Positions 5,362 through 32,508 of a stretch of 32,508 bases of DNA are shown in pieces. The position numbers were made by a program, and so were the translations under genes. Source of the stretch: Acetobacteraceae bacterium. Lineage in GTDB: Bacteria; Pseudomonadota; Alphaproteobacteria; Acetobacterales; Acetobacteraceae. The stretch lies in contig PKZM01000101.1 of NCBI GenBank assembly GCA_003133065.1, positions 8,044 to 40,551 of the forward strand. Direction: 5' to 3'. The notes below the pieces were generated by a model. It made no database searches and was not told the origin of the DNA. It was given only the letters and a program-made list of their open reading frames with translations. Position 1 is the first letter of the stretch. Each line of letters begins with the position of its first letter.

Positions 5362-7227
5362 TCAGCCTTTGCCGCGCCTCTCGGCCGCGATCCACGCGTC
5401 CACGCGCTGCTCCAGCACCGCAAGCGGTACGGCCCCCTCGTCCAGCACAACATCGTGGAACGCCCGCTCGTCGAAGCCGTCCCCCAGCTTTGCCTCCGCG
5501 CGATGCCGTAGCTCCATGATCTTCAACTCGCCGATCTTGTAGCCCAGCGCCTGCCCTGGCCACGCGATATAGCGGTTCACCTCATTCTGCATGTTCGTCT
5601 CGGCCAGCGCGGTATTCTCCCGCAGGCAGGAAAGCGCCTGATCCCGGCTCCAGCCTTTCCAGTGGATACCCACATCCATCACCAGCCGGCACGCCCGCCA
5701 CATCTCCATCGACAGCATGCCGAATCGCTCAAACGGCGTGCGATACACGCCCATCTCCGACACAAGCTGTTCCGCGTACACGGCCCAGCCCTCCACGAAC
5801 GCGGTGATCTCCCAATCCTGCCGGAACGCGGGGTACCCCGTCAGTTCCTGCCCCAGCGCGATCTGGATATGGTGTCCCGGCGCCCCCTCATGCGCCACCA
5901 GTGCGGGCAATTCATATAGCGGCCGCTGGTCCAAATGCGACGTGTTGATCATCAGCCCGCCGGCCGCGCCCTGCTGCGGGCTGCCAGGAAAATACCGCGC
6001 GCTGGTATAGCCCTCCTCGATCGCCGCCGGCACCGCGCGCACGCCATAGCTCAGCCGCGGCAGCTTGCCGAAATGCCGCGGCAGCTCGGCGTCCACCATC
6101 TTCGCAAGCCGGCTCGCCTTTTCCAGCAGCGCCTCCCGCGTGGCCACATAAAACCGTGGATCGCGCCGCAGCATCGCCTGAAATTCCGCGAAGCTGCCGG
6201 TAAATCCGCTGGCCTTGATCTGCACATCCATTGCCGATCGTATGCGTGCGATCTCCGATTGGCCGATCGCGAAAATCTGGTCCGGGGTCAGATCGGTCGT
6301 CGTCTCCCGCCGCACCAGATACGCGTAATACGCCCGCCCATCCGGCAGTGCCGCGGCACCCAGGCTGGCCCGGCTCTGCGGCATGTACGCATGGGCGAAA
6401 AATTCAGCGAGTTTGCGTTCTGCCGGTTTCACCTCGCCCGCGACGATCGCCAACGCCTGCGCCCGCAGCGCGTCGCGTGTCTGCGCAGGCACGCTCTGCG
6501 GCAGCGTCGCCAGCGGCGCCAGCAACGGATCGGCGGCCGCCGGCACGGCCGCCTGCGCCGCCGTCGTACGGGAAGCGGTTTCAGTCGTCAGCCTCGGTTG
6601 CACGAACCCCGTGGTCAGCCCGCGCCGCATGTTTGCCGTCTCGGTCGCGTAATAGGCGGGCAGGGTGTGAAGCCGCGCCAACCAGGCCCGCGCGTCGGCA
6701 ACGCTGCGCAGCACGGTCGCGTCCGCGGCATAGGCGGGCGTCACGAAAAACCCCTCGTCGCTGGTGAACGGTATTCGGTTCTCGTCGAACGCCACGCCGC
6801 GCAGATCGATATCCATCCGCCACGCCAGCAGATCGCGGTTCAACCTGTCTTCGCCGGCAAGCGCGCCCGGCCTGATCGCCGCCAGCCGGGCGTTCAGTGC
6901 CGCCAGCCGCGCCATGCGCGCCTGCACCGCCGCCGGCGAATCATCCGGCCACCGCCGCGCCGCTTCTGTGTCCCCGCGCGCGGCAGCGCCGATCGGATCA
7001 GCCTCCGTCAGCCAGGAATTGTAGTCGCGCAAGATGCCGTCCAGGGGGGCGGCATGGGCTGAACCGCAAAAGAAAAGGAAGAAGATGTTCTTTTTTGAAA
7101 AAAAGAACCAAAAAACTTTTGTTCCTGTGCCTACGCTGCCGGCGAGCCTCGCACCAACAGTTAAGAGTTTTTTGCTTCTTTTTTTCAAAAAAGAAGACCT
7201 TTCTTTCTTAGTTTCCAAACCGCACAT
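5362..7227 (-). CDS. DUF885-family putative secreted metallopeptidase with repeat-derived N-terminus
   Basis: The body (about residue 57 onward) is a DUF885 protein. The signature VAHEGAPGHHIQIALGQ matches the family's zinc-peptidase-like HExxPGHHxQ motif, and the second conserved region around EGWAVYAEQL is present. The odd part is the N-terminus. The only in-frame start codons upstream of the mature region are ATG 7227, TTG 7218 and TTG 7188, and all lie before or inside an inverted pair of AT-rich repeats (7087-7197). A TTG at about 7035 would give a form without a signal peptide. The repeats encode KVFWFFFSKKN, which runs straight into IFFLFFCGSAHA then APLDG, a plausible signal peptide with an AHA cleavage site. 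The protein therefore seems to use repeat sequence as its leader. Function as a peptidase is inferred from the family; the exact start is uncertain. Confidence 0.85.
   Translation of the reverse strand: MCGLETKKERSSFLKKRSKKLLTVGARLAGSVGTGTKVFWFFFSKKNIFFLFFCGSAHAAPLDGILRDYNSWLTEADPIGAAARGDTEAARRWPDDSPAAVQARMARLAALNARLAAIRPGALAGEDRLNRDLLAWRMDIDLRGVAFDENRIPFTSDEGFFVTPAYAADATVLRSVADARAWLARLHTLPAYYATETANMRRGLTTGFVQPRLTTETASRTTAAQAAVPAAADPLLAPLATLPQSVPAQTRDALRAQALAIVAGEVKPAERKLAEFFAHAYMPQSRASLGAAALPDGRAYYAYLVRRETTTDLTPDQIFAIGQSEIARIRSAMDVQIKASGFTGSFAEFQAMLRRDPRFYVATREALLEKASRLAKMVDAELPRHFGKLPRLSYGVRAVPAAIEEGYTSARYFPGSPQQGAAGGLMINTSHLDQRPLYELPALVAHEGAPGHHIQIALGQELTGYPAFRQDWEITAFVEGWAVYAEQLVSEMGVYRTPFERFGMLSMEMWRACRLVMDVGIHWKGWSRDQALSCLRENTALAETNMQNEVNRYIAWPGQALGYKIGELKIMELRHRAEAKLGDGFDERAFHDVVLDEGAVPLAVLEQRVDAWIAAERRGKG
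7087..7197. repeat. Inverted repeat pair: units 4 (B, 7087-7120) and 5 (A, 7164-7197)
   Basis: This is a composite element of about 111 bp. Unit 4 has the G-type stem (GTTC with GAAC) and unit 5 the C-type stem (CTTC with GAAG). The spacer, read on the minus strand, contains GCTCGCCGGCAGCGTAGGC. It matches the spacers of the pairs at 15998 and 29724 in the opposite orientation. The element lies at the 5' end of the DUF885 gene and is translated in frame with it. Confidence 0.92.
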
Positions 7228-11639: not shown

Positions 11640-12413
11640 CTATTTTTCAACGAACGCCTTCTCAATCACATATGCGCCCTGCCGGGTACCACTGCCTTCC
11701 ACCCAGCCCTCCTGGGCAAACCATGCGCCGAAATCGGCCAGCAGGGCCGGGCTGCCACACAACATGATGCGGTCCCGGGCGCTGTCCAGCGGTTGCAGGC
11801 CGAGATCGGCTTGCAGCCGGCCGGAGAACATCAGATCGGTAACGCGTCCCTGGTTGCGGAAGGGCTCGCGCGTGACCGTGGGATAGTAGAGCAGTTTGTC
11901 CTGGGTGAACTCGCCCAGGAACTCATGCGCGTGCAATTCATGCGCAATCTCTTCGTGATAGGCGAGTTCGGCGACCTGCCGGCACCCATGCACCAGCACC
12001 ACGCGCTCGAACGGCGCATAGGTTTCGGGGTCCTTGATCAGGCTCATGAAGGGTGCCAGGCCCGTGCCGGTGGCCAGCATATACAGTGTGCGCCCCGGCA
12101 GCAGGCTCTCGGCCAGCAGCGTGCCCACCGGCTTGCGCCCGATCAGCACCGTATCGCCTGGCTGGATATGCTGCAGGCGGGAGGTCAGCGGCCCATCCGC
12201 CACCTTGATGCTGAGGAATTGCAGCGTGTCCTCCCAGTTGGCACTCACCATACTGTAGGCGCGCAGCAATGGCCGGCCATCGACCATCAGGCCGATCATC
12301 GAGAACTGGCCGCTCTTGAAGCGGAAGGCGGGATCGCGGGTACAGGTGAAACTGAACAGCGTGTCCGTCCAATGATGCACGGTCAGCACGCGTTCCTCGA
12401 AAAATGCGCTCAT
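11640..12413 (-). CDS. fpr: Ferredoxin/flavodoxin-NADP+ reductase
   Basis: The 257-residue flavoprotein has the bacterial FPR layout. The FAD-binding motif RAYSM lies at about residues 51-55, and the NADP-binding GTGLAPFMSLI lies near 116-126. MLCGSPALLADF follows near 218, and the protein ends in an aromatic-containing tail, AYVIEKAFVEK, typical of the subclass found in Rhodobacter and Azotobacter. It exchanges electrons between NADPH and ferredoxin or flavodoxin in the cytoplasm and is often tied to oxidative stress or to supplying reduced ferredoxin. ATG 12413 agrees with the family start. It stands alone among polysaccharide genes. Confidence 0.95.
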   Translation of the reverse strand: MSAFFEERVLTVHHWTDTLFSFTCTRDPAFRFKSGQFSMIGLMVDGRPLLRAYSMVSANWEDTLQFLSIKVADGPLTSRLQHIQPGDTVLIGRKPVGTLLAESLLPGRTLYMLATGTGLAPFMSLIKDPETYAPFERVVLVHGCRQVAELAYHEEIAHELHAHEFLGEFTQDKLLYYPTVTREPFRNQGRVTDLMFSGRLQADLGLQPLDSARDRIMLCGSPALLADFGAWFAQEGWVEGSGTRQGAYVIEKAFVEK

Positions 12414-12420
12414 GTGTTGG

Positions 12421-12447
12421 TCGTCAGTCGTCAGTGATCAGTCAGTG
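12421..12447. repeat. Short tandem GTCGTCAGTCGTCAGT motif upstream of fpr
   Basis: Tandem seven-base-type repeats (GTCGTCA GTCGTCA GTGATCA GTCAGT) occur directly upstream of the fpr start. A related GTCGTC-rich run occurs at the start of the LolA-like gene near 24832-24862. Function is unknown. Confidence 0.5.
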
Positions 12448-12542
12448 GAGCAGGTATAAGCTGCGGCCCGCCTGCGCCAGGGGCAACGCCCAGAAACATG
12501 CCAGCTATCCGGCCCGGGCGTCCCGACGCGACTCTAAAAGAC

Positions 12543-12617
12543 CAAAAGTCTCTTGCTTCTTTTCGTCAGGAAAGAAGAAAGACCCTTCTTTCTTGAAAGA
12601 AAGAAGGCAAAGAACTT
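12543..12617. repeat. Diverged repeat units 6a (A, 12543-12578) and 6b (B, 12585-12617)
   Basis: Two C-type units (CTTC with GAAG stems) lie in A then B order with only about six bases between. Unit 6a reads CTTCTTTTCG-TCAG-GAAAGAAG and unit 6b reads CTTCTTTCTTGAAAGAAAGAAG. Substitutions in one arm are largely matched in the other, so the stems remain paired. They lie between the minus-strand GT4 gene and fpr. Confidence 0.8.
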
Positions 12618-12646
12618 TGACGACTTTAGAACCGCTGCCGGCGCAG

Positions 12647-13843
12647 CTAGGGCAATAAATCAATGAGCCGTGCGAGGATGGTGGCGGCGGCGGCGTGCCA
12701 GGTAAAACGCGCGGCGTGAGCGCGGCACGCGGCGCGCAGCGCCTCGCCCTCGCGGAGCCGCCGCGCCAGCATCTGCTCCAGCGCAAGGTGCATGCCGGCA
12801 GCGGAGAGCGGATCGAAATAGCTGCACAGATCGCCCCCCACCTCAGGGATGCTGGAACTCCAGGAAGCCACGCACGGCGTGCCGGCGGACAGGCTCTCCA
12901 GCACCGGCAGCCCGAACCCCTCGAACAGCGACGGATACAGAGTCGCCTGCGCGCCTGCCAGCAGCCGGTATTTGGCGCGGTCTCCCACGAAGCCGGGAAA
13001 CACGATCCGGCCGGCCGCCACCGCCGGCTCCAGCGCCTCCGGCAGCGCGTGTTGCTCCGCCAGCCAACCCATCTTGCCGGCGAAGACAAAACGGTGGCTC
13101 TGCAGCAGCGCCGGTGCCCGCGCCAGCATGTCGAACACCAGCATCACGTTCTTGCGCGGCTCCCGCGTGCCCAGGATCAGCAGATACGGCTCCGCTCCCG
13201 CCGGCGCCATCAGGTTGGCCGCATCCACCGCAAATCCCTCCGGCCACACCACGCCATTGGCCGTCACCACGGTCTTGGCAGGGTCAACGCCCAGGTAGGC
13301 CACCAGATCGTCCCGCGAGGCCGCCGACACCGTCACCACGAGGTCGTCCGACGCGATATCGGCCAGCAGCGCCTCCATGTGGTGATCCACATTCAGCTTC
13401 ATGTGGAAATACGGCAGCACCAGCGTCGAAAGATCGTGGAAAATGCTGCATTCGATATCGAAGGCGCGGCGTATCCGCTTCACCGACGGGAAGATTCCCA
13501 CCCGCGGTCCGCCGGCACCGCGCGAGAGTACCGGCAGCCGGCCGGCATCGGCGCGCCCCGCTGCGATCTCGCGGTTCAGGAACAGACCGGTCTGGCGCCG
13601 GAGCGCATCGGCCACCGCCTCGAACGCGATCAGCCTGTGATCAAGGAAGAAGTTCAGCCGCCCCGCCGGGAGCACCGATGCGAGCGCGGCGGCAAGCCCC
13701 ACCGCCACGACCGGGATCCCCGTCCATTGCGGATCGAGCAGCGGCGAGATGTCCACATACAGCGAGGCATCGCGTGCGGTCAGCCTTGCCGCTTCCCGCA
13801 CGAGGGCGTCCGTGTGCGGCGCCTGGGCCAGCAGCCCGCTCAT
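12647..13843 (-). CDS. GT4-family (group 1) glycosyltransferase
   Basis: This GT-B fold glycosyltransferase has 398 residues. The C-terminal domain carries YLLILGTREPRKN (about 218-230), FVFAGKMGW and the diagnostic nucleotide-sugar-binding segment around YPSLFEGFGLPVLESLSAG, then IPEVGG. The N-terminal domain has the SxxSRDDLV-type motif (SAASRDDLVAYLGV). It most likely adds a sugar during exopolysaccharide or lipopolysaccharide assembly on the cytoplasmic face. Its ATG (13841-13843) overlaps the TGA of the upstream unknown gene by four bases, so the two are translationally coupled and probably work together. Sugar specificity is unknown. Confidence 0.92.
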   Translation of the reverse strand: MSGLLAQAPHTDALVREAARLTARDASLYVDISPLLDPQWTGIPVVAVGLAAALASVLPAGRLNFFLDHRLIAFEAVADALRRQTGLFLNREIAAGRADAGRLPVLSRGAGGPRVGIFPSVKRIRRAFDIECSIFHDLSTLVLPYFHMKLNVDHHMEALLADIASDDLVVTVSAASRDDLVAYLGVDPAKTVVTANGVVWPEGFAVDAANLMAPAGAEPYLLILGTREPRKNVMLVFDMLARAPALLQSHRFVFAGKMGWLAEQHALPEALEPAVAAGRIVFPGFVGDRAKYRLLAGAQATLYPSLFEGFGLPVLESLSAGTPCVASWSSSIPEVGGDLCSYFDPLSAAGMHLALEQMLARRLREGEALRAACRAHAARFTWHAAAATILARLIDLLP

Positions 13844-15117: not shown

Positions 15118-15213
15118 CCGCACCCCCGCACCCACACCGGCGCCGCCAAGTTCCCACGAATCGCTGAGGGCGATAAGCGTCCGTCAGGGCTCGGCTGCGG
15201 AGTAAAGAAAGCA

Positions 15214-15337
15214 GTTCTTTTTTGAAAAAAAGAACCAAAAAACTTTTGTTCGTTGCTGAGTATGGGTGGCAGGCGTGTCAGATCAGGGGCAAGGGCAGGC
15301 GGGTAAGAGTTTTTTGCTTCTTTTTTTCAAAAAAGAG
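15214..15337. repeat. Inverted repeat pair: units 7 (B, 15214-15247) and 8 (A, 15305-15337)
   Basis: The pair lies between the divergent starts at 15117 and 15373. Unit 7 has a perfect G-type stem. Unit 8 is C-type, but its right arm ends in GAGG in place of GAAG, so its outermost pairs are lost. The spacer is about 57 bases and does not match the conserved spacer of the other pairs. Confidence 0.88.
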
Positions 15338-15372
15338 GTGCTTGCCTTTGGCTTCACCCGATTCGCTGGACC

Positions 15373-15990
15373 ATGATCGAAGGCCATATCGAAACCCTCT
15401 CGGCAGACGGCATCATCCATGGCTGGGTGCGCGATACGGACTCCGCCCGCCCTTGCCACATGCAGGTGCTCTGGAACGGCCGCATCATCGCGGAAGCCAT
15501 GGGTGACCGCTTCCGGCCGGACCTCCTCGCCCGACGCCTGGGCCATGGGCATTACGGATTTCAGGCCCGGTTGCGTCAGGCTCTGCCGCCCGGGCCCTGC
15601 GGCGTCATCATGTATCTCCCCCGCACCGGCATCAGCGCCGCCATGGCATTGATCGTGCCGCCTTTGGCGCCGTCCACGCCGGCGACCGTCGAGACGCTGC
15701 TGCTCATGCAGGCTGAATGGCGCCCCGCGGACCTGCTCGCGTCACCCGGCTGCCTGGACATGGATGCCAACCTGGCCCGCATGGGGTCCCCCCGCTTTGT
15801 GGATGGGGTGTTCCGCTTTGTGCTCGGCCGCTGGCCCTCCGCCGCCGAAGCGCGCCTCCATACCGAAAGCCTTGCCGCCGGCCGTATCACCGCCGGCGGC
15901 TTGCTGATCGAGTTGCTGCAATCACGCGAACGTGCCGACATCGAGGCGCCGTTGCTGTCCCCGTTCGACACGGACTTTCCATTTGAGTAA
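15373..15990 (+). CDS. DUF4214-domain protein of the exopolysaccharide cluster
   Basis: The 205-residue protein has two parts. Residues 1-70 (GWVRDTDSARPCHMQVLWNG, RFRPDLLARRLGHGHYGF) match a small beta domain often attached to glycosyltransferases and polysaccharide proteins. Residues about 139-190 (FVDGVFRFVLGRWPSAAEA, LLIELLQSRER) match DUF4214. There is no signal peptide. The start ATG 15373 has no good ribosome binding site, and a repeat unit ends 35 bases upstream. Similar proteins lie in extracellular polysaccharide loci, so a role in polymer assembly or sensing is inferred. The gene is co-directional with the next two. Confidence 0.8.
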   Translation: MIEGHIETLSADGIIHGWVRDTDSARPCHMQVLWNGRIIAEAMGDRFRPDLLARRLGHGHYGFQARLRQALPPGPCGVIMYLPRTGISAAMALIVPPLAPSTPATVETLLLMQAEWRPADLLASPGCLDMDANLARMGSPRFVDGVFRFVLGRWPSAAEARLHTESLAAGRITAGGLLIELLQSRERADIEAPLLSPFDTDFPFE

Positions 15991-15997
15991 GGAAGAC

Positions 15998-16107
15998 TCT
16001 TCTTTTTTAAAAAAAAGAAGCAAAAAATTTGCCGGTGCTGTCGCCGACTCGCCGGAAGCGTGGGCCAAAGTTCAAAAGTTTTTTGGTTCTTTTTTTCAAA
16101 AAAGAAC
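15998..16107. repeat. Inverted repeat pair: units 9 (B, 15998-16030) and 10 (A, 16074-16107)
   Basis: This is a 110-bp composite. Unit 9 is C-type (CTTC with GAAG) and unit 10 is G-type. The spacer holds GCTGTCGCCGACTCGCCGG then AAGCGTGGGCCAAAG, nearly identical to the spacer of the pair in the puf operon and to the inverted spacer at 7087-7197. It begins eight bases after the stop of the DUF4214 gene and ends 23 bases before the next ATG. Confidence 0.93.
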
Positions 16108-16130
16108 ATCTTCCTGATCTTAGGCCGTAA

Positions 16131-18710: not shown

Positions 18711-18734
18711 ACCCAGTTCCACGCCTCTGAAAGT

Positions 18735-18769
18735 CAAAAGTTCTTTGCTTCTTTCTTTCAAGAAAGAAG
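18735..18769. repeat. Repeat unit 11 (single, orientation A)
   Basis: This is a C-type unit, CTTCTTTCTTTCAAGAAAGAAG, preceded by CAAAAGTTCTTTG. T-to-C changes in one arm are matched by A-to-G changes in the other, so the stem stays paired. It sits between fbaB and thiE on the minus strand. Confidence 0.87.
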
Positions 18770-18801
18770 GCCCCGCGCAGCGGCAAGATGGCGCCCGTGG
18801 C

Positions 18802-20884: not shown

Positions 20885-21045
20885 ATGGCGGAGCTGCTGG
20901 GTGCGTCAGGCAATTCATCCCCGGGGCCGATAAGCATCCCTCCGGGGGCTGGCGCTGTCGTGATCCTGGTCACGGTATCTGGTTCCCACCTGCACAAGCA
21001 GGCTCTGGGGGGTGAGACGCCAACGGCTTTGGCGGCTCCGTGCAT
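20885..21045 (+). ncRNA. ssrS: 6S RNA
   Basis: 6S RNA mimics an open promoter and holds the housekeeping RNA polymerase in slow growth. Between zapA and 5-FCL the DNA can fold into one long irregular hairpin. CGGAGC (20889-20894) pairs with GCTCCG (21035-21040) and extends through GU pairs. GCGTC (20903-20907) pairs with GACGC (21016-21020). A central open region is flanked by CATCCCC on one side and GGCTCTGGGGGG on the other. The segment TGGTTCCCACCTG resembles alphaproteobacterial 6S sequences. Synteny zapA-ssrS-5-FCL is the classic location. The ends are approximate. Confidence 0.82.
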
Positions 21046-21069
21046 GACTTTCAGGAAGGAAGAAAGAAT

Positions 21070-21103
21070 CTTCTTTTTTGAAAAAAAGAAGCAAAAAACT
21101 TTT
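21070..21103. repeat. Repeat unit 12 (single, orientation B)
   Basis: This is a C-type unit (CTTCTTTTTT with AAAAAAGAAG) preceded by the purine-rich outer tail AGGAAGGAAGAAAGAA. It lies between the 3' end of 6S RNA and the start of 5-FCL, occupying the place where the ribosome binding site would be. Confidence 0.92.
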
Positions 21104-21116
21104 GTCTATTGCTGAA

Positions 21117-23991: not shown

Positions 23992-24117
23992 AGGGTTACA
24001 GTGGGCTCATACCACGGCAGCCTGGCACAGAGTGATTACCAAGTGCTGATGGCCCGGCCGAGGTCTGTCGGGCGCCGCCCATCACGCCGCGCTTTTCCTT
24101 CTGAAAGACAGCAAAGC

Positions 24118-24228
24118 CTTCTTTTTTGAAAAAAAGAAGCAAAAAACTTTCGCGACTTTAGGCGGGTGGCTGGGCTGGCACGCGACTCAACAGGCAAGAG
24201 TTTTTTGGTTCTTTTTTCAAAAAAGAAC
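24118..24228. repeat. Inverted repeat pair: units 13 (B, 24118-24150) and 14 (A, 24196-24228)
   Basis: This is a 111-bp composite of a C-type unit and a G-type unit. The 45-base spacer (CGCGACTTTAGGCGGG at its start) differs from the conserved spacer but shares CGACTTTAG with the sequence after unit 6b. It lies between the LolA-like gene and the hypothetical gene, both on the minus strand. Confidence 0.9.
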
Positions 24229-24237
24229 GTCCTTCCT

Positions 24238-24864
24238 CTACACGCCGGGCGGTGCGAACAACCCCGGCGACAGGGCTGCACGCGTATCCAGATCCCCCAG
24301 AGTCAGCGTCAATTGGCGCGCATATGGGTCCGTCACCGTCACGGCCTCAAGCCGCCAGGGCGCCTCGCCCAGGGTCAGTGTCAGGCTGCCCTGAGAGGCC
24401 TCTCCTGTCTTGACCACGGTCATCTGAACCGCTCCGGGAAAATGCTGCACACCCGTCACTGTCACTGGTCCAGAGAGGCTGATCTGCGGCGCGAGCAATA
24501 TGCCGAGCGGCGTGCGGCTGAGCGGCTGGGTGGTGATAGCCCCGCTCCCCCTATCCAGCATCGTCACCCGCCCGCCGCTGATCACCATCACCCGGCTACC
24601 CGCTCCGGCATAATCCACCCGCAGATGGCCCGGCCGGTCCAGCCAGACCAGGCCGCTGCCGCCGCCAAACGCTCCGGACTGCACGAACCGCGCTTCGAAT
24701 CGCGTCAGGCCGTTCAAATACGCGCTCGCGCCCGCGATCTCCGCCCGATCCGCCCCCGAGATGACGGGCCCCTGCGGATTCACGCACCCAGCCGATAGCA
24801 GCACCAACAGCGCCGCCCACCGCCATTCTGACGATTGGCGACGGACGACGGACGACGGGATCAT
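24238..24864 (-). CDS. LolA-like outer-membrane lipoprotein-sorting protein, itself a predicted lipoprotein
   Basis: The 208-residue protein has a lipobox, LLSAGC (Cys about residue 27), so it should be lipid-anchored, unlike classical soluble LolA. The body matches the LolA-like beta half-barrel: ASAYLNGLTRFEARFVQSG, GLVWLDRPGHLRVDYAG, the run into PLSRTPLGILLA, then LTLGEAPWRLEAVTVTD. The role would be in lipoprotein or lipid trafficking across the periplasm. Its ATG (24862-24864) overlaps the TGA of glucokinase. The first codons contain a GTCGTC tandem run that encodes SSVVRRQSS. Confidence 0.85.
   Translation of the reverse strand: MIPSSVVRRQSSEWRWAALLVLLSAGCVNPQGPVISGADRAEIAGASAYLNGLTRFEARFVQSGAFGGGSGLVWLDRPGHLRVDYAGAGSRVMVISGGRVTMLDRGSGAITTQPLSRTPLGILLAPQISLSGPVTVTGVQHFPGAVQMTVVKTGEASQGSLTLTLGEAPWRLEAVTVTDPYARQLTLTLGDLDTRAALSPGLFAPPGV
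24832..24862. repeat. GTCGTC-rich tandem motif at the start of the LolA-like gene
   Basis: On the plus strand GACGGACGACGGACGACGG repeats a seven-base unit. It falls on the first codons of the LolA-like gene and the glucokinase stop, and resembles the motif at 12421-12447 upstream of fpr. Confidence 0.5.
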
Positions 24865-25826: not shown

Positions 25827-25881
25827 GTCTCGCGCTCCTCCAGCCTCCCCACGACAACGCCCAAAGCGGACGCCATCGCCC

Positions 25882-25915
25882 AAAAGTTTTTTGGTTCTTT
25901 TTTTCAAAAAAGAAC
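25882..25915. repeat. Repeat unit 15 (single, orientation A)
   Basis: This is a perfect G-type unit followed by the outer tail ATTCTTCCTTTT. It lies between the puf operon terminator and the glucokinase ribosome binding site. Confidence 0.93.
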
Positions 25916-25939
25916 ATTCTTCCTTTTGCATTCACCAAC

Positions 25940-25995: not shown

Positions 25996-27108
25996 CTAAT
26001 GCGGCGGTGTTGGCGCCGCCGGGGCGGTTGGGGCTGCTGCCGCTGGCGGCTCCACCGCCGCTGTCGGCGAGGCCGGAGGGCCCTGCAATTCCGGAAACGT
26101 CTTGACCATGCTCACGCCGAACAGTGGTTTATAGACGCCCTGATGACAGGTCGCGCAGTAGACTTTCGGGCTGTCGCCGAGCACGCCCTTTCTGTAGGCA
26201 GGGAATACGCTGTTCAGCGGATCGAGATAGTGGTTGTTCAGATCGCGCACCATCCGGATGCCGTACCATGCATTCACCCGTGCGGGCGAGCTTTCCGCCC
26301 AGTTGCCGAACGACCTGGTGTTATGGCAGTACGTGCAGTTGACCCCGAGCGACTGGCTGAAATGGATCATCAGCGCATAGGTCCATTCGGTCTCCTTGAT
26401 CGACGATAGATCGTCGGTCGGCAGCGCTGTGGTGCTCTGCACGCGGATGCTGTGATCCTGTTCCAGATACGGCGTGAACGGATCATAGGGCAGGGAGGAA
26501 TAATTGATTCGCTCCGTCGGGTGGGCCATCCCTGTTTGCGTTTCCGCCAGTCCGCCGGCCGATTCCGGGCCGGGGTTGTTGAACCAGATGTTCTTCGGCA
26601 CGGGATTGCCGCCATGGCAGGTGTAGCAGGTAACACCCACATTCTGCACATGGCTCTGCCAGTTGCCGTTGATGTTCTGCGTCATCTGGATCATGCGGCG
26701 CGCGACGATCTTGGTGTAGTTGGCATCGTCGGCCATGTTCGCCACGTTGTGGCAATAGGCGCAGCCTTGCTTGGGTGCCACCCAGTTGGTGATGCTCACC
26801 ATCAGCCGCGTGAACTGGCCGACGCTGAGATTGCCCAGAACGCGAACGTTCTTGTAGGCAACGGAGGCTTTCACGCCGGCGGCACTGGCTGGCGGAAGGC
26901 TTCTCGGCACCTTGGATGCCGCCTGCGCCGCCGCCAGTTCGGCCGGATCGTAGAGCTGGGCGATTGCCGTGCCCCGAAAGCCGCGCTGCACCGACGTGAT
27001 GGGCGGATGTTGCAGCTTGGTGAATGTGGTGATGCCGATCAGAGTCGCCGCCGTCACCCCAATCAGCGTGGCACCGTATATGATGCCCTGCTTCAAGTAG
27101 TCGCTCAT
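25996..27108 (-). CDS. pufC: Tetraheme reaction-centre cytochrome c subunit
   Basis: The 370-residue protein carries four CxxCH heme sites: CAYCH (116-120), CYTCH (161-165), CTYCH (258-262) and CATCH (318-322). It re-reduces the photo-oxidised special pair from the periplasmic side. The N-terminus has one hydrophobic segment ([21 protein letters not shown], residues 9-29) and no lipobox cysteine, so it is probably held by an uncleaved membrane anchor. A Pro/Ala-rich tail (about 345-370) follows the last heme. The ATG overlaps the pufM stop (ATGA), so the two are translationally coupled. Confidence 0.97.
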
Positions 27109-28085
27109 TTCGGTGCTCCCGGGAGTGTGGCGGGATCGATCACGGTGCCCCAGCTTGGCGGATAGACCGGCACCAGGCCGTGATGCGTGCCCCAAAGATA
27201 CCAGTTATCCACCACCGTGCCAGTCAGCAGGATGCCGAGGCCGCCCGAGAGTGGGCACAGCACCGCGAACCACCACGCCCAGCGATGGATGGATTCTGCC
27301 GTGGCGTTGAAACCCATCGTCCAGCGCCAGAACAGCCCGCCGCGTTCGAAGGCCGTGCCGCGATCGGCGATCTGGTCCAGTTCGCGCTCCGCACCAAAGC
27401 GGCTTGTGGCCAGAACGGTTGCGCCATGCATGGCGAAGAGCAGCGTGGAGCCGTAGAGAAATACGATCGAGAGCATATGGAAGGGGTTGTAGAAGAGATT
27501 GCCGTATCGCAGCGAAAACGCTGCGGTCCAGTCCAGATGCGGGAAGATGCCGAACGGAACCGCTTCCGCCCAGGATCCCATCAGCAGCGGCCGGATGAAG
27601 CCCAGCACCAGATACAGCCAGATGGCTGCGGCAAACGCCCACGCCGTGTGCGATCCCAGGCCCAGCGCCCGCGCCCGGCGGTAGATGCGCACCCACCAAA
27701 GCAGGATGGAGGTGGTGAGGAAAAACCCGGCCATAAGCCACCAGCCGCCCTCTGCCAGGGGTGGGAAATGCAGGCCGTAGGATGGGGCAGGGGGCTCCAG
27801 CGCCAGCCAGGGCAATTGCCGAAGGAACTGCACCGGATCCCAGTTCACGCTGGCCCACATGTTCAGGCCGATGATCTCGAACGCAATGAACCCGCAGATC
27901 AGCGAGGCCAGGCCCAGCGTGCCCAAATAGATCGGGCCTACCTGTGCATCGCCGAGGCGCCCGAAGAGGTGCACGAAGCCTGGTGTGCCGAGCCGGTTGT
28001 TCGGCCCGCGCCCTTCCAGGGGGGTACCGGCATAAATCGGCCCCCGCACCTGAATCCGCGTAAAAATGTTCTGATACTCGGCCAT
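27105..28085 (-). CDS. pufM: Photosynthetic reaction-centre M subunit
   Basis: The 326-residue protein has five membrane helices and binds half of the cofactors of the type 2 reaction centre. Key features are visible: accessory bacteriochlorophyll His in FGIFPHLDW, special-pair His in [10 protein letters not shown], the Tyr in [14 protein letters not shown] (M210 equivalent) and [11 protein letters not shown] near the quinone site. The C-terminal extension ([18 protein letters not shown]) is typical of species with a PufC cytochrome. GGAGG lies about ten bases before ATG 28085. A 90-base gap with hairpins separates it from pufL. Confidence 0.98.
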
Positions 28086-28106
28086 GACGCCGTGTCCTCC
28101 GAATTA

Positions 28107-28146
28107 GGCCGCGCTGCGGCCGGGCGATTTAGGCCGAGATCCGGCC
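28107..28146 (-). other. Two stem-loops in the pufL-pufM spacer
   Basis: GGCCGC-GCT-GCGGCC (28107-28121) is a perfect six-base stem. GGCCG (28132-28136) with CGGCC (28142-28146) is a five-base stem. Both are in the transcribed spacer between L and M and could affect message processing or relative expression. Confidence 0.6.
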
Positions 28147-28175
28147 GCCAAATTCACACATGGTCCGGTTTCGCC

Positions 28176-29003
28176 TCAGTGCGTCCAGATCGGCAGGTTC
28201 AGCCACCAGCTCCACCATTCCGGCCAGCCGCGCGTCCAGAACGGGCCGCTCAGGATGATGCACACGGCACTCCAGAAGCCGGCAGACAGGGCAAGGAACA
28301 AGCCCAGGCGATGAATGCCCAGCGTGCCGATCGAGTAGCCGATCAGATCACGGAAAAACGTGTTCTCGTGTTCCGCCGTCTTCATCACCTCGCCCTTGGG
28401 CGGGTTTGCGGCCGACAGCACCAGCGATCCATGCAGCGACAGCGCGAGGGTGGTGGTGAAGAAGAACGAAACCGCCAGCATATGCGCCGGATTATAGTGG
28501 AAATGCAGGTATTGGTAGCCGGTGTTGGAGACCCAATCCAGATGGCTGAGAATGCCATACGGAAAGGCCCATCCCCACGCGCCCATCAGCACCGGGCGGA
28601 TCACCTCCAGCGCCACATAGGCGAACACCGCCACGCCGTAGGCGAAGGGCACATGCAGCCCCATGCCGAGCTTGCGCGAGATTTCCACCTGGCGTAGCGC
28701 CCAGGAGCCGAACGCGCCGATGGCGCAGATGGTGATCACCTGCCACAGCCCGCCCTCCTTCAACGGCGCGAAACCCAGGCCGTAGGAGAGATCGGGCGGC
28801 GCGATATTGATGCGCCATATGTTCCACACGCCGCCGAGTGAGGCGCCGTACAGGATCAGCGCTGTTCCCAGTGCTGAGAAGAAGATCGTCGTGACCCCGA
28901 AGAACCCCACATAGAAGGGCCCCACCCAGAAGTCGAACAGGTCGCCACCGACCAGGGTGCCACCGCGGGTGCGGTATTTGGCCTCAAAACTTAGCATCGC
29001 CAT
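28176..29003 (-). CDS. pufL: Photosynthetic reaction-centre L subunit
   Basis: The 275-residue protein has five membrane helices. His154 (L153), His169 (L168) and His174 (L173) are present in ILSHLDW and HFHYNPAHM. Position L168 being His, not Glu, indicates magnesium bacteriochlorophyll. The quinone/iron region [21 protein letters not shown] is intact. An oddity is Gln at the position equivalent to GluL104 (WALRQVEIS in place of WALREVEI). The start ATG 29003 has GGAGGGT seven bases upstream. Confidence 0.98.
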
Positions 29004-29065
29004 CGATTGACCCTCCGGTCGAAACGCAAACCTTATGCTCGCACCGCATCACCCGGGGTGGCATC

Positions 29066-29119
29066 GGCGGCGGCTGGGTTGAGCAAACCTGCCGCCGCCA
29101 GAAGCGGCTTTCCCGCTTC
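29066..29119 (-). other. Two stem-loops between pufA and pufL
   Basis: GGCGGCGGC (29066-29074) pairs perfectly with GCCGCCGCC (29091-29099), with an extra inner GGTT/AACC. GAAGCGG (29101-29107) pairs with CCGCTTC (29113-29119). Both are in the 141-base intercistronic region. In Rhodobacter, hairpins at this same place protect the pufBA message and raise antenna over reaction-centre output. Confidence 0.75.
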
Positions 29120-29144
29120 GTGCCCCGTGGTGAAGCGCTCTGCC

Positions 29145-29330
29145 TTACTTCGCAGACGAGGGCAGGGGTGCCAATTGCTGGGCAACCATGCCGTGATGCG
29201 GGCCTTCAAGCCAGTTGAAGCGGTCCGTGCTGAGCAGGATGAAATGAATCAGCAATGCGAGCACGAACAGGAAAATCGACAGCGCGACGAGAACGCGGCG
29301 CGGGTCGAACAGCAGCCAAATGCGGAACAT
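29145..29330 (-). CDS. pufA: Light-harvesting 1 alpha polypeptide
   Basis: The 61-residue antenna protein has the textbook sequence [20 protein letters not shown] with [18 protein letters not shown]. Its membrane helix carries the bacteriochlorophyll-binding His in LLIHFILLS. With PufB it forms the LH1 ring around the reaction centre. The ribosome binding site AGGAG overlaps the pufB stop codon, and the gap to pufB is only 12 bases, so the two are coupled. Confidence 0.97.
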
Positions 29331-29342
29331 ATGTGTGCTCTC

Positions 29343-29564
29343 CTATCCGATCATCATTTTCACGGCGTTGATGCCATCCAGCATCGACGTCGTGTAACCA
29401 TTCGGCCCAGGCAGCCACGGCCTCCACTGCCACACCAGGAAGTGCGCGATGATGGCAACCACCACGAACCCGATGAAGCTGGTGAGAAAGATGCTGTGGA
29501 ATTCCTTGGCTTCGCTTTCCGTCAGCCCTGAGGCGGCGACGGGACGTTTTGTGACGTCCGACAT
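29343..29564 (-). CDS. pufB: Light-harvesting 1 beta polypeptide
   Basis: The 73-residue antenna protein has the beta signature [37 protein letters not shown] in pieces: a first His in EFHSIF and the bacteriochlorophyll His in [13 protein letters not shown]. The tail is longer than in many species ([18 protein letters not shown]). GGAGGT lies eight bases before ATG 29564. It is the first puf gene of the operon here. Confidence 0.97.
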
Positions 29565-29586
29565 TGTGTAGTACCTCCGTCCATCG

Positions 29587-29640
29587 CCGCGCTGATCCCG
29601 CGCGGCAGGGACCCCAGTTGCCGAACGCCGGCTTTGGGGT
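29587..29640 (-). other. Two stem-loops in the pufB 5' region
   Basis: CCGCGC (29587-29592) pairs with GCGCGG (29600-29605). ACCCCA (29611-29616) pairs with TGGGGT (29635-29640), with an inner GCCG/CGGC stem. They lie just upstream of the pufB ribosome binding site and would be part of its leader. They may protect the 5' end of a processed pufBA message. Confidence 0.5.
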
Positions 29641-29723
29641 TTCTCCGTCCGGCACTGCCGGGCGGTCTTGTGCGGGGGAGGGCGGCGAAGCCTGCGCGAC
29701 CCCCGGAACCAGAAAGAAAGAAT

Positions 29724-29834
29724 CTTCTTTTCTGAAGAAAAGAAGCAAAAGACTTTTGGGGCGCTGTCGCGGACTCGCCGGAAGCGTACGCCAAAGAGAC
29801 AAAAGTTTTTTGCTTCTTTTTTTCAAAAAAGAAG
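29724..29834. repeat. Inverted repeat pair inside the bchZ-pufB spacer: units 16 (B, 29724-29757) and 17 (A, 29801-29834)
   Basis: This is a 111-bp composite of two C-type units. The spacer GCTGTCGCGGACTCGCCGG then AAGCGTACGCCAAAG nearly matches that of the pair at 15998-16107. Flanks AAAGAAAGAAT and ATTCTTCCTT complete the inverted ends. It lies within the photosynthesis operon, 13 bases past the bchZ stop. Confidence 0.93.
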
Positions 29835-29847
29835 ATTCTTCCTTCGT

Positions 29848-31287
29848 TCATGCGCCCACCGTCGCCCTTACACGATCGGCGGAAACTCGACCCTCTCGCG
29901 CTGCCCGCGCATCCTGTTCCACGCGATCGCGCAGCCGTTTCGCCGCCGAAATCCGTACCAGGAACGGCTCGCTCGCCACCTTCTCGTCCAGTAGCGCCAG
30001 CGCATCGTCATCCCAAGGTGCCGCGTTCCACTCGGCGGTCTTGGCGAGGGTGGGATCCACCTTGTCCATCTCCGTGCCCAGCGGCAGGATGTGGAACAAC
30101 GCATCGAACAGCGCGTTGCAATATTCCTGAACGATGTAGGTCGCACCCGCGTAGCCCATATACGGCGTGCCCGTGGCCCGCCGGATGATCGCGCCGGGAA
30201 ACGAGGCGGGGATGAACATGCTGCGCCCGCCCAATTCGGCCGCATACATACGTTCATTGTAGCTGCCATAGAGCACCAGCGGGGGTGTCGCGCGCAAAGC
30301 CTGCCGCACCTTGGCATTATCGGGTTTTGTTCCCGCGGTGCGCGAGAACGCGAACGTGCACGGCACGCCGAGTTCATCTTCCAGGAATTGCCGCAAGCCC
30401 CGCGCGTAGGTCTCGGTCGCCACGACCGCGAACGAGGCGGTGGCGAAGAAGTCCTGCGTCACGCTGCGCCACAAATCCCAGATCGGTTTTATTGTTGTAT
30501 GCTTTTCCGCCTCGATGAACGGCTCCGGATCAATCCCCGTCAGCTCGCCCAGCGTCCGCAGAAAATTCGTCGTGGCAAAAATCCCGATCGGCGCCTGCAG
30601 ATACGGGCGATCCAGCGCCTCGCACAGTTTGCGGCCGAACTCGCGATACATGCAGATATTCACATCGGCATTGGGCAGCTTGGCCACATCCTCGATATGG
30701 CTGCCGAGCGGGAACACCACATTGATCTCGCAGCCGACACCTTCGACGAGACGACGGATCTCCGCCAGATCCGATGGCATGTTGAACGTGCCATAGATCG
30801 GCCCGATGATGTTCACGCGCGGCTTCACGCCCTCGGTGCGCGCCGGCCTGGGCTTGATGGCCTTCTTCGATCCGAATTCCGTCCACAGCCAGTAGATGGC
30901 GCGATCCGCTGCCTGCCACTGATCCTCATCGATCGTGCGCGGGATGAAGCGCAGCAGGTTGCTGCCCTCCGGCGTCACGCCGCCGCCGATCATTTCGGCG
31001 ATGCTGCCGGTTACCACCACCGCCGGCAGATCCTGATCGCCGGCAGAAGCTGCCCGCCGCATCGCACCCTCGGTGCCGTCCATCGAGAGGTTGTCTTCGG
31101 AAAGGCCCGTGACCACCACAGGAAGTTCGTGCGGCGGCAGGCCATCCGTATAATGCAGCACCGCGGTCACCGGCAGGTTTTCACAGCCGACCGGCCCGTC
31201 GATCACCACACGCAATCCGCGCACGGCGCTGAACGCGTATACCGCGCCCCAATATCCGCCCGCGCGATCATGATCGAGCACCAGCAT
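29848..31287 (-). CDS. bchZ: Chlorophyllide a reductase subunit Z
   Basis: The 479-residue nitrogenase-like protein is one of the catalytic pair (Y and Z) that reduces ring B of chlorophyllide a on the way to bacteriochlorophyll a. It starts with the family sequence [19 protein letters not shown], then [14 protein letters not shown] with a cluster-ligand Cys, and [19 protein letters not shown]. The ATG lies three bases after the bchY stop. The stop is followed by a 283-base spacer to pufB. Confidence 0.97.
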
Positions 31288-31290
31288 CTC

Positions 31291-32508
31291 TCAGGTCCCC
31301 ACCGCTTCCAGGGATTTCGCCTTGGCCAGCCTGGCTTTGCGCGTGCGTTCCCGCGCGCCCTGCGGTTCCACCGGCTTGCCTTTCCAGCCATAGCCGGAGG
31401 CATCGCCGGTGCCGACACCTTCAAAGAACGAAACCATCCGCCCGAAGCGGGCAGCACCCTTTGTCTGCGCCGCCACGATCGCTGCCAGGGCACCCGCGCC
31501 GGGTGCGCCGAACAGCGGCCGCGCGGAGACCATGTTGGTGTAGTAGAGCGCCGGGATGCCCAGCTCCTTGGCCTTCTGCACCAGCGGCGTGGTGCCGACC
31601 GCCAGGTCCGGGCGGACATCCATCATGGCGCAGAGATCCTGCTCCAGCGATGCGCGGTACTGCACATGTGTGCCGCGCGCTTCCAGCCAGGCGCGATCGG
31701 CCTCGCTCCATTCCGTGCGCGGGCATGCCGTGCCCACATAGGGAATCTCCGCGCCCGCCTCCATCAGCAGCCGTGCCACCAGCAGCTCCGATCCCTCATA
31801 TCCGGAAAGGGTGATGCGGGCCTTGATCGGATTGGCTGCAAGGGCGGCGGCAATTGCCGGCAACGCGGCCGCCTTCGCCGCATCCACCGCCGAATCTGGC
31901 CTGCCGGCAGCGCGGCCCACGGCCTCCAGCCACGCGGCCGTGCCCTCAATGCCCACCGGCGCCGATCCCACAACAGGCCGCCCCGCTGCGCGGAATTCGC
32001 GTACGGAGGCTGTGTAGAAAGGGTGTGCTGCGGCGGCTACGTCGCAATCCAGCGCCGCGTACAGATCGCGCCATTCGCGGCACGGCAGCACCGGCGCCAG
32101 CGCCATGCCCATCGGTGCCAGCAGCGCGCCCACGCCGGGCGGATCAGCAGGGAAAAACTCGCCCAGCATCGCAACCGTCGGCTTGTCCTGCAGCACGCGG
32201 GGCCGCGCCACGGGGCCTTGTTCCGCTTCCGTGCGCGCATATTTCAGCATCGCACCGGTCAGCACGTCCTTCGCTTCGGCATGCGTCGGCACGCCGAAGC
32301 CGGGCACGTCGATCCCGATAATGCGAACCCCATCGATGTGTTTGGGCAGCAGATCCAGCGGCACACCGGAGGCCGTGGGCACGCAGAGATTGATCACCAC
32401 CACCGCATCGTAATCGGCGGGTTTGGCGATATCGTGCACCGCGTTGCGGATATCCTCGAACAACTGGCCTTTTACGAGTGATTCGGAATTGAACGGCACG
32501 TAGCCCAC
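31291..32508 (-). CDS. bchY: Chlorophyllide a reductase subunit Y (5' end beyond the window)
   Basis: This is the C-terminal 405 residues of BchY, cut by the window edge; roughly the first 90-100 residues are missing. Family segments include VVVINLCVPTASGVPLDLLP, GVRIIGIDVPGFGVPTHAEAKD and the long stretch around ALYYTNMVSARPLFG. BchY pairs with BchZ to hold the catalytic iron-sulfur cluster and accepts electrons from BchX. The usual order bchC-bchX-bchY suggests those genes lie beyond the right edge. Confidence 0.95.
   Translation of the reverse strand: MGYVPFNSESLVKGQLFEDIRNAVHDIAKPADYDAVVVINLCVPTASGVPLDLLPKHIDGVRIIGIDVPGFGVPTHAEAKDVLTGAMLKYARTEAEQGPVARPRVLQDKPTVAMLGEFFPADPPGVGALLAPMGMALAPVLPCREWRDLYAALDCDVAAAAHPFYTASVREFRAAGRPVVGSAPVGIEGTAAWLEAVGRAAGRPDSAVDAAKAAALPAIAAALAANPIKARITLSGYEGSELLVARLLMEAGAEIPYVGTACPRTEWSEADRAWLEARGTHVQYRASLEQDLCAMMDVRPDLAVGTTPLVQKAKELGIPALYYTNMVSARPLFGAPGAGALAAIVAAQTKGAARFGRMVSFFEGVGTGDASGYGWKGKPVEPQGARERTRKARLAKAKSLEAVGT

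Follow-up and report, generated by a model that had tools for sequence, protein, structure and literature searches.

A palindromic repeat that may form part of signal peptides of exported proteins in an Acetobacteraceae bacterium

The DUF885 (PF05960) gene on the minus strand of the window, the 32,508-nucleotide stretch of Acetobacteraceae DNA analysed here, probably acquired its present leader by insertion of an Acetobacteraceae palindromic element, in frame, in its leader region, so that translation of the element now yields the n-region and the greater part of the hydrophobic core. The start codon would then lie upstream of or inside the element, with the c-region CGSAHA alone remaining of the native leader. 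Two properties would make the element tolerable: its location in a leader that is cleaved off, and outward frames that are open, basic and rich in F and L. This reading draws on the anatomy of the sequence, the absence of the element in orthologues, its recurrence in other genes, and one empty site, in a gene other than that for DUF885. Translation, export and cleavage of the repeat-derived DUF885 leader are predictions from the same sequence.

The longest canonical ORF (5362..7227, minus strand; 621 codons plus the stop) has an intact HEGAPGHH motif, and the PF05960 profile is covered over its full length (1-532 of 532, E 7.6e-156), including the HE-x-x-x-GHH motif of the family. Read on the minus strand, the frame is open from a stop codon upstream of 7227. 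The sequence-only reading that preceded this analysis had named ATG 7227, TTG 7218 and TTG 7188 as the only canonical in-frame starts 5' of the predicted mature N-terminus (A at 7050), and had noted that no ATG, GTG or TTG lies in the DUF885 frame between the repeat (7077-7206) and the predicted signal-peptidase site AHA/APLDG; both statements were confirmed. The next in-frame start after TTG 7188 is TTG ~7032, within the mature protein. If a leader is present and a canonical start is used, the arms of the repeat must be translated, whichever start it is.

The repeat is 130 bp long and consists of two inverted 44-bp arms and a 42-nt spacer, all on the minus strand in the reading of the gene. 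The upstream arm (7163..7206), in the inward orientation, matches the arm model, is read in frame and contains TTG 7188; it is followed by the spacer (7121..7162), also translated in frame and falling in the 40-44 nt class common to most -+ pairs, and by the downstream arm (7077..7120), which matches the arm model in the outward orientation, reads KVFWFFFSKKNIFF in frame and carries the palindrome GTTCTTTTTTTCAAAAAAGAAC. The pyrimidine tail of this arm (7069..7083), recognised by the tail consensus, codes for FFLFF, which makes up the bulk of the predicted hydrophobic core, and leads into the putative residual native leader CGSAHA (7051..7068), assigned by inspection, with the predicted signal-peptidase site before the A at 7050. 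Since IFFLFF comes from the pyrimidine tail, only CGSAHA looks native. By inspection and hydropathy, the parts of a putative Sec signal peptide, a basic n-region, a hydrophobic h-region and an A-x-A site, are all present; the hydropathy over IFFLFFCGS is 2.31, the core is short, and SKKN stands directly before it. The DUF885 copy of the element folds to a hairpin of ~34 bp (-67.1 kcal/mol, z -3.7) that buries TTG 7188 and leaves ATG 7227 outside the stem.

All 16 DUF885 orthologues compared, including two congeners at ~70% identity, are free of the repeat: each starts in frame with an ordinary leader, and the 400 nt before it contain no arm. The DUF885 gene itself shows no sign of decay or relaxed constraint: the ORF and the metal-site-like motif are intact, the ratio of changes at codon positions 1 and 2 to those at position 3 is 0.39-0.45 against the congeners, constraint on the first two positions equals that in the congeners, and its branch in the tree is not long. 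These data bear on an alternative that is unlikely, namely that the leader has been lost, with initiation at TTG ~7032 or some near-cognate codon (for instance, ATC ~7086), and that the repeat is simply intergenic and the enzyme cytoplasmic or dying. The repeat does normally lie in intergenic DNA, its hairpin would disrupt initiation, and TTG ~7032 is available in frame. However, this TTG is without a Shine-Dalgarno sequence, a start there would cut off the beginning of the mature protein, and the AHA/A site and hydrophobic run survive right before it. Leader loss is also at odds with the leaders kept in all orthologues, with an ORF that is intact and constrained, and with the same frame-preserving arrangement in many other genes, including LptE.

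For translation from upstream of or inside the element, the choice of start codon is less clear. ATG 7227 (7225..7227), a candidate retained native start 7 codons before the element and without a Shine-Dalgarno sequence, has an even chance of being the initiation codon, and TTG 7188 (7186..7188), within the repeat, a distinctly smaller one. An ATG at ~7274 (MSPLRRFA...), considered as the native start after a one-base shift, was suggestive by eye but found no support in any relative, and was set aside. Initiation at TTG 7188 would mean that the element brings both start codon and leader, with its purine tail as the Shine-Dalgarno sequence, which is the less likely possibility. The purine run pointed out in the sequence-only reading is indeed present 9 nt upstream of this TTG (AAAGG, with AAGG as the Shine-Dalgarno-like 4-mer); such 4-mers are in range for 242 of 496 arm-centre TTGs, versus 13% of random TTGs, and the leaders of loci L205, L276 and L062 are readable from arm-centre TTGs. 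Against this stand the hairpin, which buries TTG 7188, and the genes for ABC_trans_aux, a UrtB-like protein and the L276 peptidase, where a native start with a Shine-Dalgarno sequence lies 2-3 codons before the element.

The DNA upstream of DUF885 is not conserved, and the empty-site comparison comes from the ABC_trans_aux lipoprotein gene. In the congener G001, the unoccupied site is GCGATGAGGATTGCGCTG (short form GATGAGGATTGCGCTG), and in the source genome (G000) the arrangement is AAGTGAGGA-element-CTTTGCGCTG (short form GTGAGGA-element-TTTGCGCTG). The insertion is 132 bp, or 44 codons, and lies in frame two codons past the native start, which is kept upstream together with the second codon, with GGAG 6 nt before the start. 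By analogy, ABC_trans_aux is the best guide to DUF885, and would suggest an in-frame insertion just past the start and not a start-bringing repeat. The original proposal, that a repeat inserted in the signal sequence now supplies both leader and start codon, is strengthened in its first part by the repeat-free orthologues, by the similar arrangement in other exported genes and by the empty site. Its second part, the repeat as supplier of the start codon, finds no clear support: in most sister cases a candidate native start has been kept, 2-12 codons before the repeat, and three of these genes have a Shine-Dalgarno-like sequence with it. The position of ATG 7227 agrees with this pattern.

The same event appears, from sequence, to recur in other exported proteins of the source genome, about a dozen of them or more. 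Genes were scanned for an arm leading in frame into a hydrophobic stretch and an A-x-A or lipoprotein site, where neither ATG nor GTG intervenes; 19 of 257 genes qualified in their own frame, versus 7 and 3 in the other two frames (10 of 514; Fisher p = 4e-4), a recurrence that speaks against the single accident that had been envisaged for DUF885. Gene calls and the signal-peptide heuristic were made with in-house scripts, and on these calls the excess is estimated at ~14 genes in 36% of the genome, or ~40 genes if extrapolated. Candidate families include LptE, CcmH, the ABC_trans_aux lipoprotein, an aspartyl protease, a GDSL lipase and a UrtB-like, probable permease with a BPD_transp_2 domain, the gene for the last having AAGGAGG and then GTG 3 codons before the element. 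The orthologues of LptE, a protein that many Gram-negative bacteria cannot do without, are free of the element. In the case of CcmH, the leader has the element in G000 and in the congener G001 (L282), in different reading frames, while CcmH of the congener G002 and others has a plain leader; the difference in frame may reflect independent insertion, or a shifted frame that was kept open.

Outside the source genome, a leader of the isolate Acidiphilium sp. PA reads TTG-KKRTKKLLLAGAVLLALSGC/AVQPD, and an LptM-like lipoprotein lies behind an element in an Acetobacteraceae bin. The frame control across a mixed 770-kb sample of other genomes gave no excess (3 versus 2 and 3), and the evidence outside the source genome therefore consists of single cases. 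An orthologue test of forced translation near elements yielded few informative cases in 365 kb of G002. A separate observation concerns locus L210, where an ABC permease-like gene (12197-12943, minus strand) has no ATG, GTG or TTG between the element and the first membrane segment; a near-cognate start or a frameshift is possible there.

The source genome is about 90% complete, in 230 contigs, and looks like a metagenome bin; the flank past the upstream arm could be misjoined at the repeat. A misassembly in which unrelated flanks were joined at this high-copy repeat, the leader being elsewhere than the enzyme in the cell, is nevertheless very improbable. About a thousand exact copies in so fragmented a genome would favour such errors, but the key junction, from arm tail through CGSAHA to the mature protein, spans less than 60 nt and would fit in single reads, and the in-frame pattern recurs across many genes, as well as in the genome of an isolate.

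In-frame insertion, the preferred reading, may be favoured in leaders by what the element happens to encode. Outward-read arms are 91-97% stop-free in each frame, and their peptides contain 41-47% F/L/I/V/M and 20-23% K/R, compared with 18% and 16% in random DNA here; a basic-then-hydrophobic stretch occurs in 20-38% of arms versus 5.5% of random DNA. Because the outward frames are open, basic and rich in F and L, a gene-facing insertion often encodes a peptide resembling an n-region and an early h-region. A cytoplasmic protein would permanently carry such an insertion, whereas one in a leader would be cleaved away. On a broader scale, it is an evenly balanced proposition that this high-copy repeat repeatedly rewrites signal peptides genome-wide, in tens of genes including LptE and CcmH, by virtue of the outward frames of its palindrome and pyrimidine tail, each of them mostly open, basic and F/L-rich; its centre, TTTTTTGAAA, would also offer a latent TTG start and a TGA stop at gene borders.

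The repeat family has an arm core of AAAAGTTTTTTGSTTCTTTTTTTCAAAAAAGAAS followed by a pyrimidine tail, and its arms are AT-rich within a 65% GC genome. An initial 419 kb of the source genome held 187 arms, and 1.49 Mb held 653 arms forming 427 elements, among them 165 inverted outward pairs, 203 solo arms and 57 inward pairs; outward pairs have spacers of two narrow size classes, 40-48 and 56-58 nt. The repeat pair is thus a real one, as first read, and well outside what chance would give, in a family that numbers over a thousand copies: the exact 22-bp palindrome is present in 998 copies in the source genome, versus 0 for the reversed control. Exact counts are 245 in G001, 7 in G002 and 0-221 in other Acetobacteraceae, and none was found in 40 genomes from other families of the class; among the 100 genomes checked, the palindrome is confined to Acetobacteraceae. 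Copy numbers of 998, 245 and 7 within one genus point to strong expansion or loss. Plasmid records gave two distant matches, from Pseudoroseomonas, with no annotated gene beneath; the literature text searched held no mention of the element's DNA or peptides, and an Rfam search of the window returned no family besides 6S RNA.

The elements normally lie at gene 3' ends, just past stop codons. In the 1.49 Mb, their median distance from the stop codon is 3 nt, 330 of 1186 genes have an arm within 30 nt of the 3' end, and convergent gaps hold 104 elements per 151 as against 38 per 147 for divergent gaps. The stop codon falls inside an arm in 89 of the 1186 genes; this stop is in many instances the central TGA of the palindrome (TTTTTTGAAA), and the element would in such cases rewrite C-termini too. 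Solo arms have no strand preference (48 versus 45), and the position of the elements would suit intrinsic terminators, with a hairpin and then a U tract at transcript ends. The family marks gene borders genome-wide, and may do so as a terminator or as a stabiliser of mRNA 3' ends. Further copies within the window, for the most part near the 3' ends of genes, lie at 14-60, 2580-2687, 12543-12619, 15201-15350, 15986-16119, 18712-18781, 21057-21104, 24105-24241, 25858-25927 and 29711-29846. A 6S RNA at 20888-21042 on the plus strand (RF00013, 69.1 bits) adjoins one copy, and ~25996-32508 carries what are, judged by eye only, puf/bch-like photosynthesis genes, with reaction-centre L, M and cytochrome subunits and a light-independent protochlorophyllide reductase.

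Translation of palindromic repeats is not unique to this family. The Rickettsia palindromic elements (Ogata et al. 2000), as described in reviews (PMC2229807, PMC10969869), are palindromic, 105-146 bp long, and lie in frame in many protein genes. The Acetobacteraceae element resembles them in its in-frame position in protein genes with the ORF maintained, and in its absence from orthologues, as evidenced by the ABC_trans_aux empty site and by DUF885 and LptE orthologues without it. The Rickettsia elements, compared here by description, belong to another lineage, and the conserved proteins whose ORFs they occupy are diverse. For the Acetobacteraceae element, leaders and gene ends are the places where insertions were looked for and found. 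In Yersinia, a palindromic sequence (RU-2) forms residues 1-30 of the predicted signal peptide of YPO1552, homologues of which in other genera have unrelated leaders (Delihas 2007, PMC2759123). That case concerns one small exported protein, whereas the present one concerns several conserved envelope proteins and includes an empty site and a frame control. What seems to be added to these precedents, translated repeats in Rickettsia and one Yersinia leader, is another element family and the repeated use of it in leaders.

With regard to its mode of spread, the element shares with REP/REPIN (BIME) sequences its location at gene 3' ends and its short palindromic arms, which stand alone or form inverted pairs of fixed spacing. 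It differs in having AT-rich arms in a 65% GC genome and in that no RAYT (Y1_Tnp, PF01797) gene was matched in the ~90% complete source genome, control genomes being positive. As in MITEs, it is short and nonautonomous-looking and has terminal inverted repeats, with arms that pair over 34 bp, and its copy number differs strongly between congeners; unlike them, no parent transposase was identified and no target-site duplication was detectable in 163 paired elements, where shared flanking k-mers of 4-7 nt matched the shuffled expectation and 8-mer matches numbered two versus 0.4 expected. The DUF885 element has TGCGGTT on either side, but this was rejected as such a duplication, as a 7-mer match arises in ~2% of shuffles and no duplication shows up among the 163 elements.

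Gene callers may misplace starts in Acetobacteraceae. Beyond annotation, many conserved envelope proteins of a single genome seem to have repeat-derived leaders, a natural series that can be set against congeners without them. Two questions become testable on it: how much freedom there is to rewrite the n-regions of signal peptides, and whether it is the chance content of their frames that turns noncoding repeats into protein.
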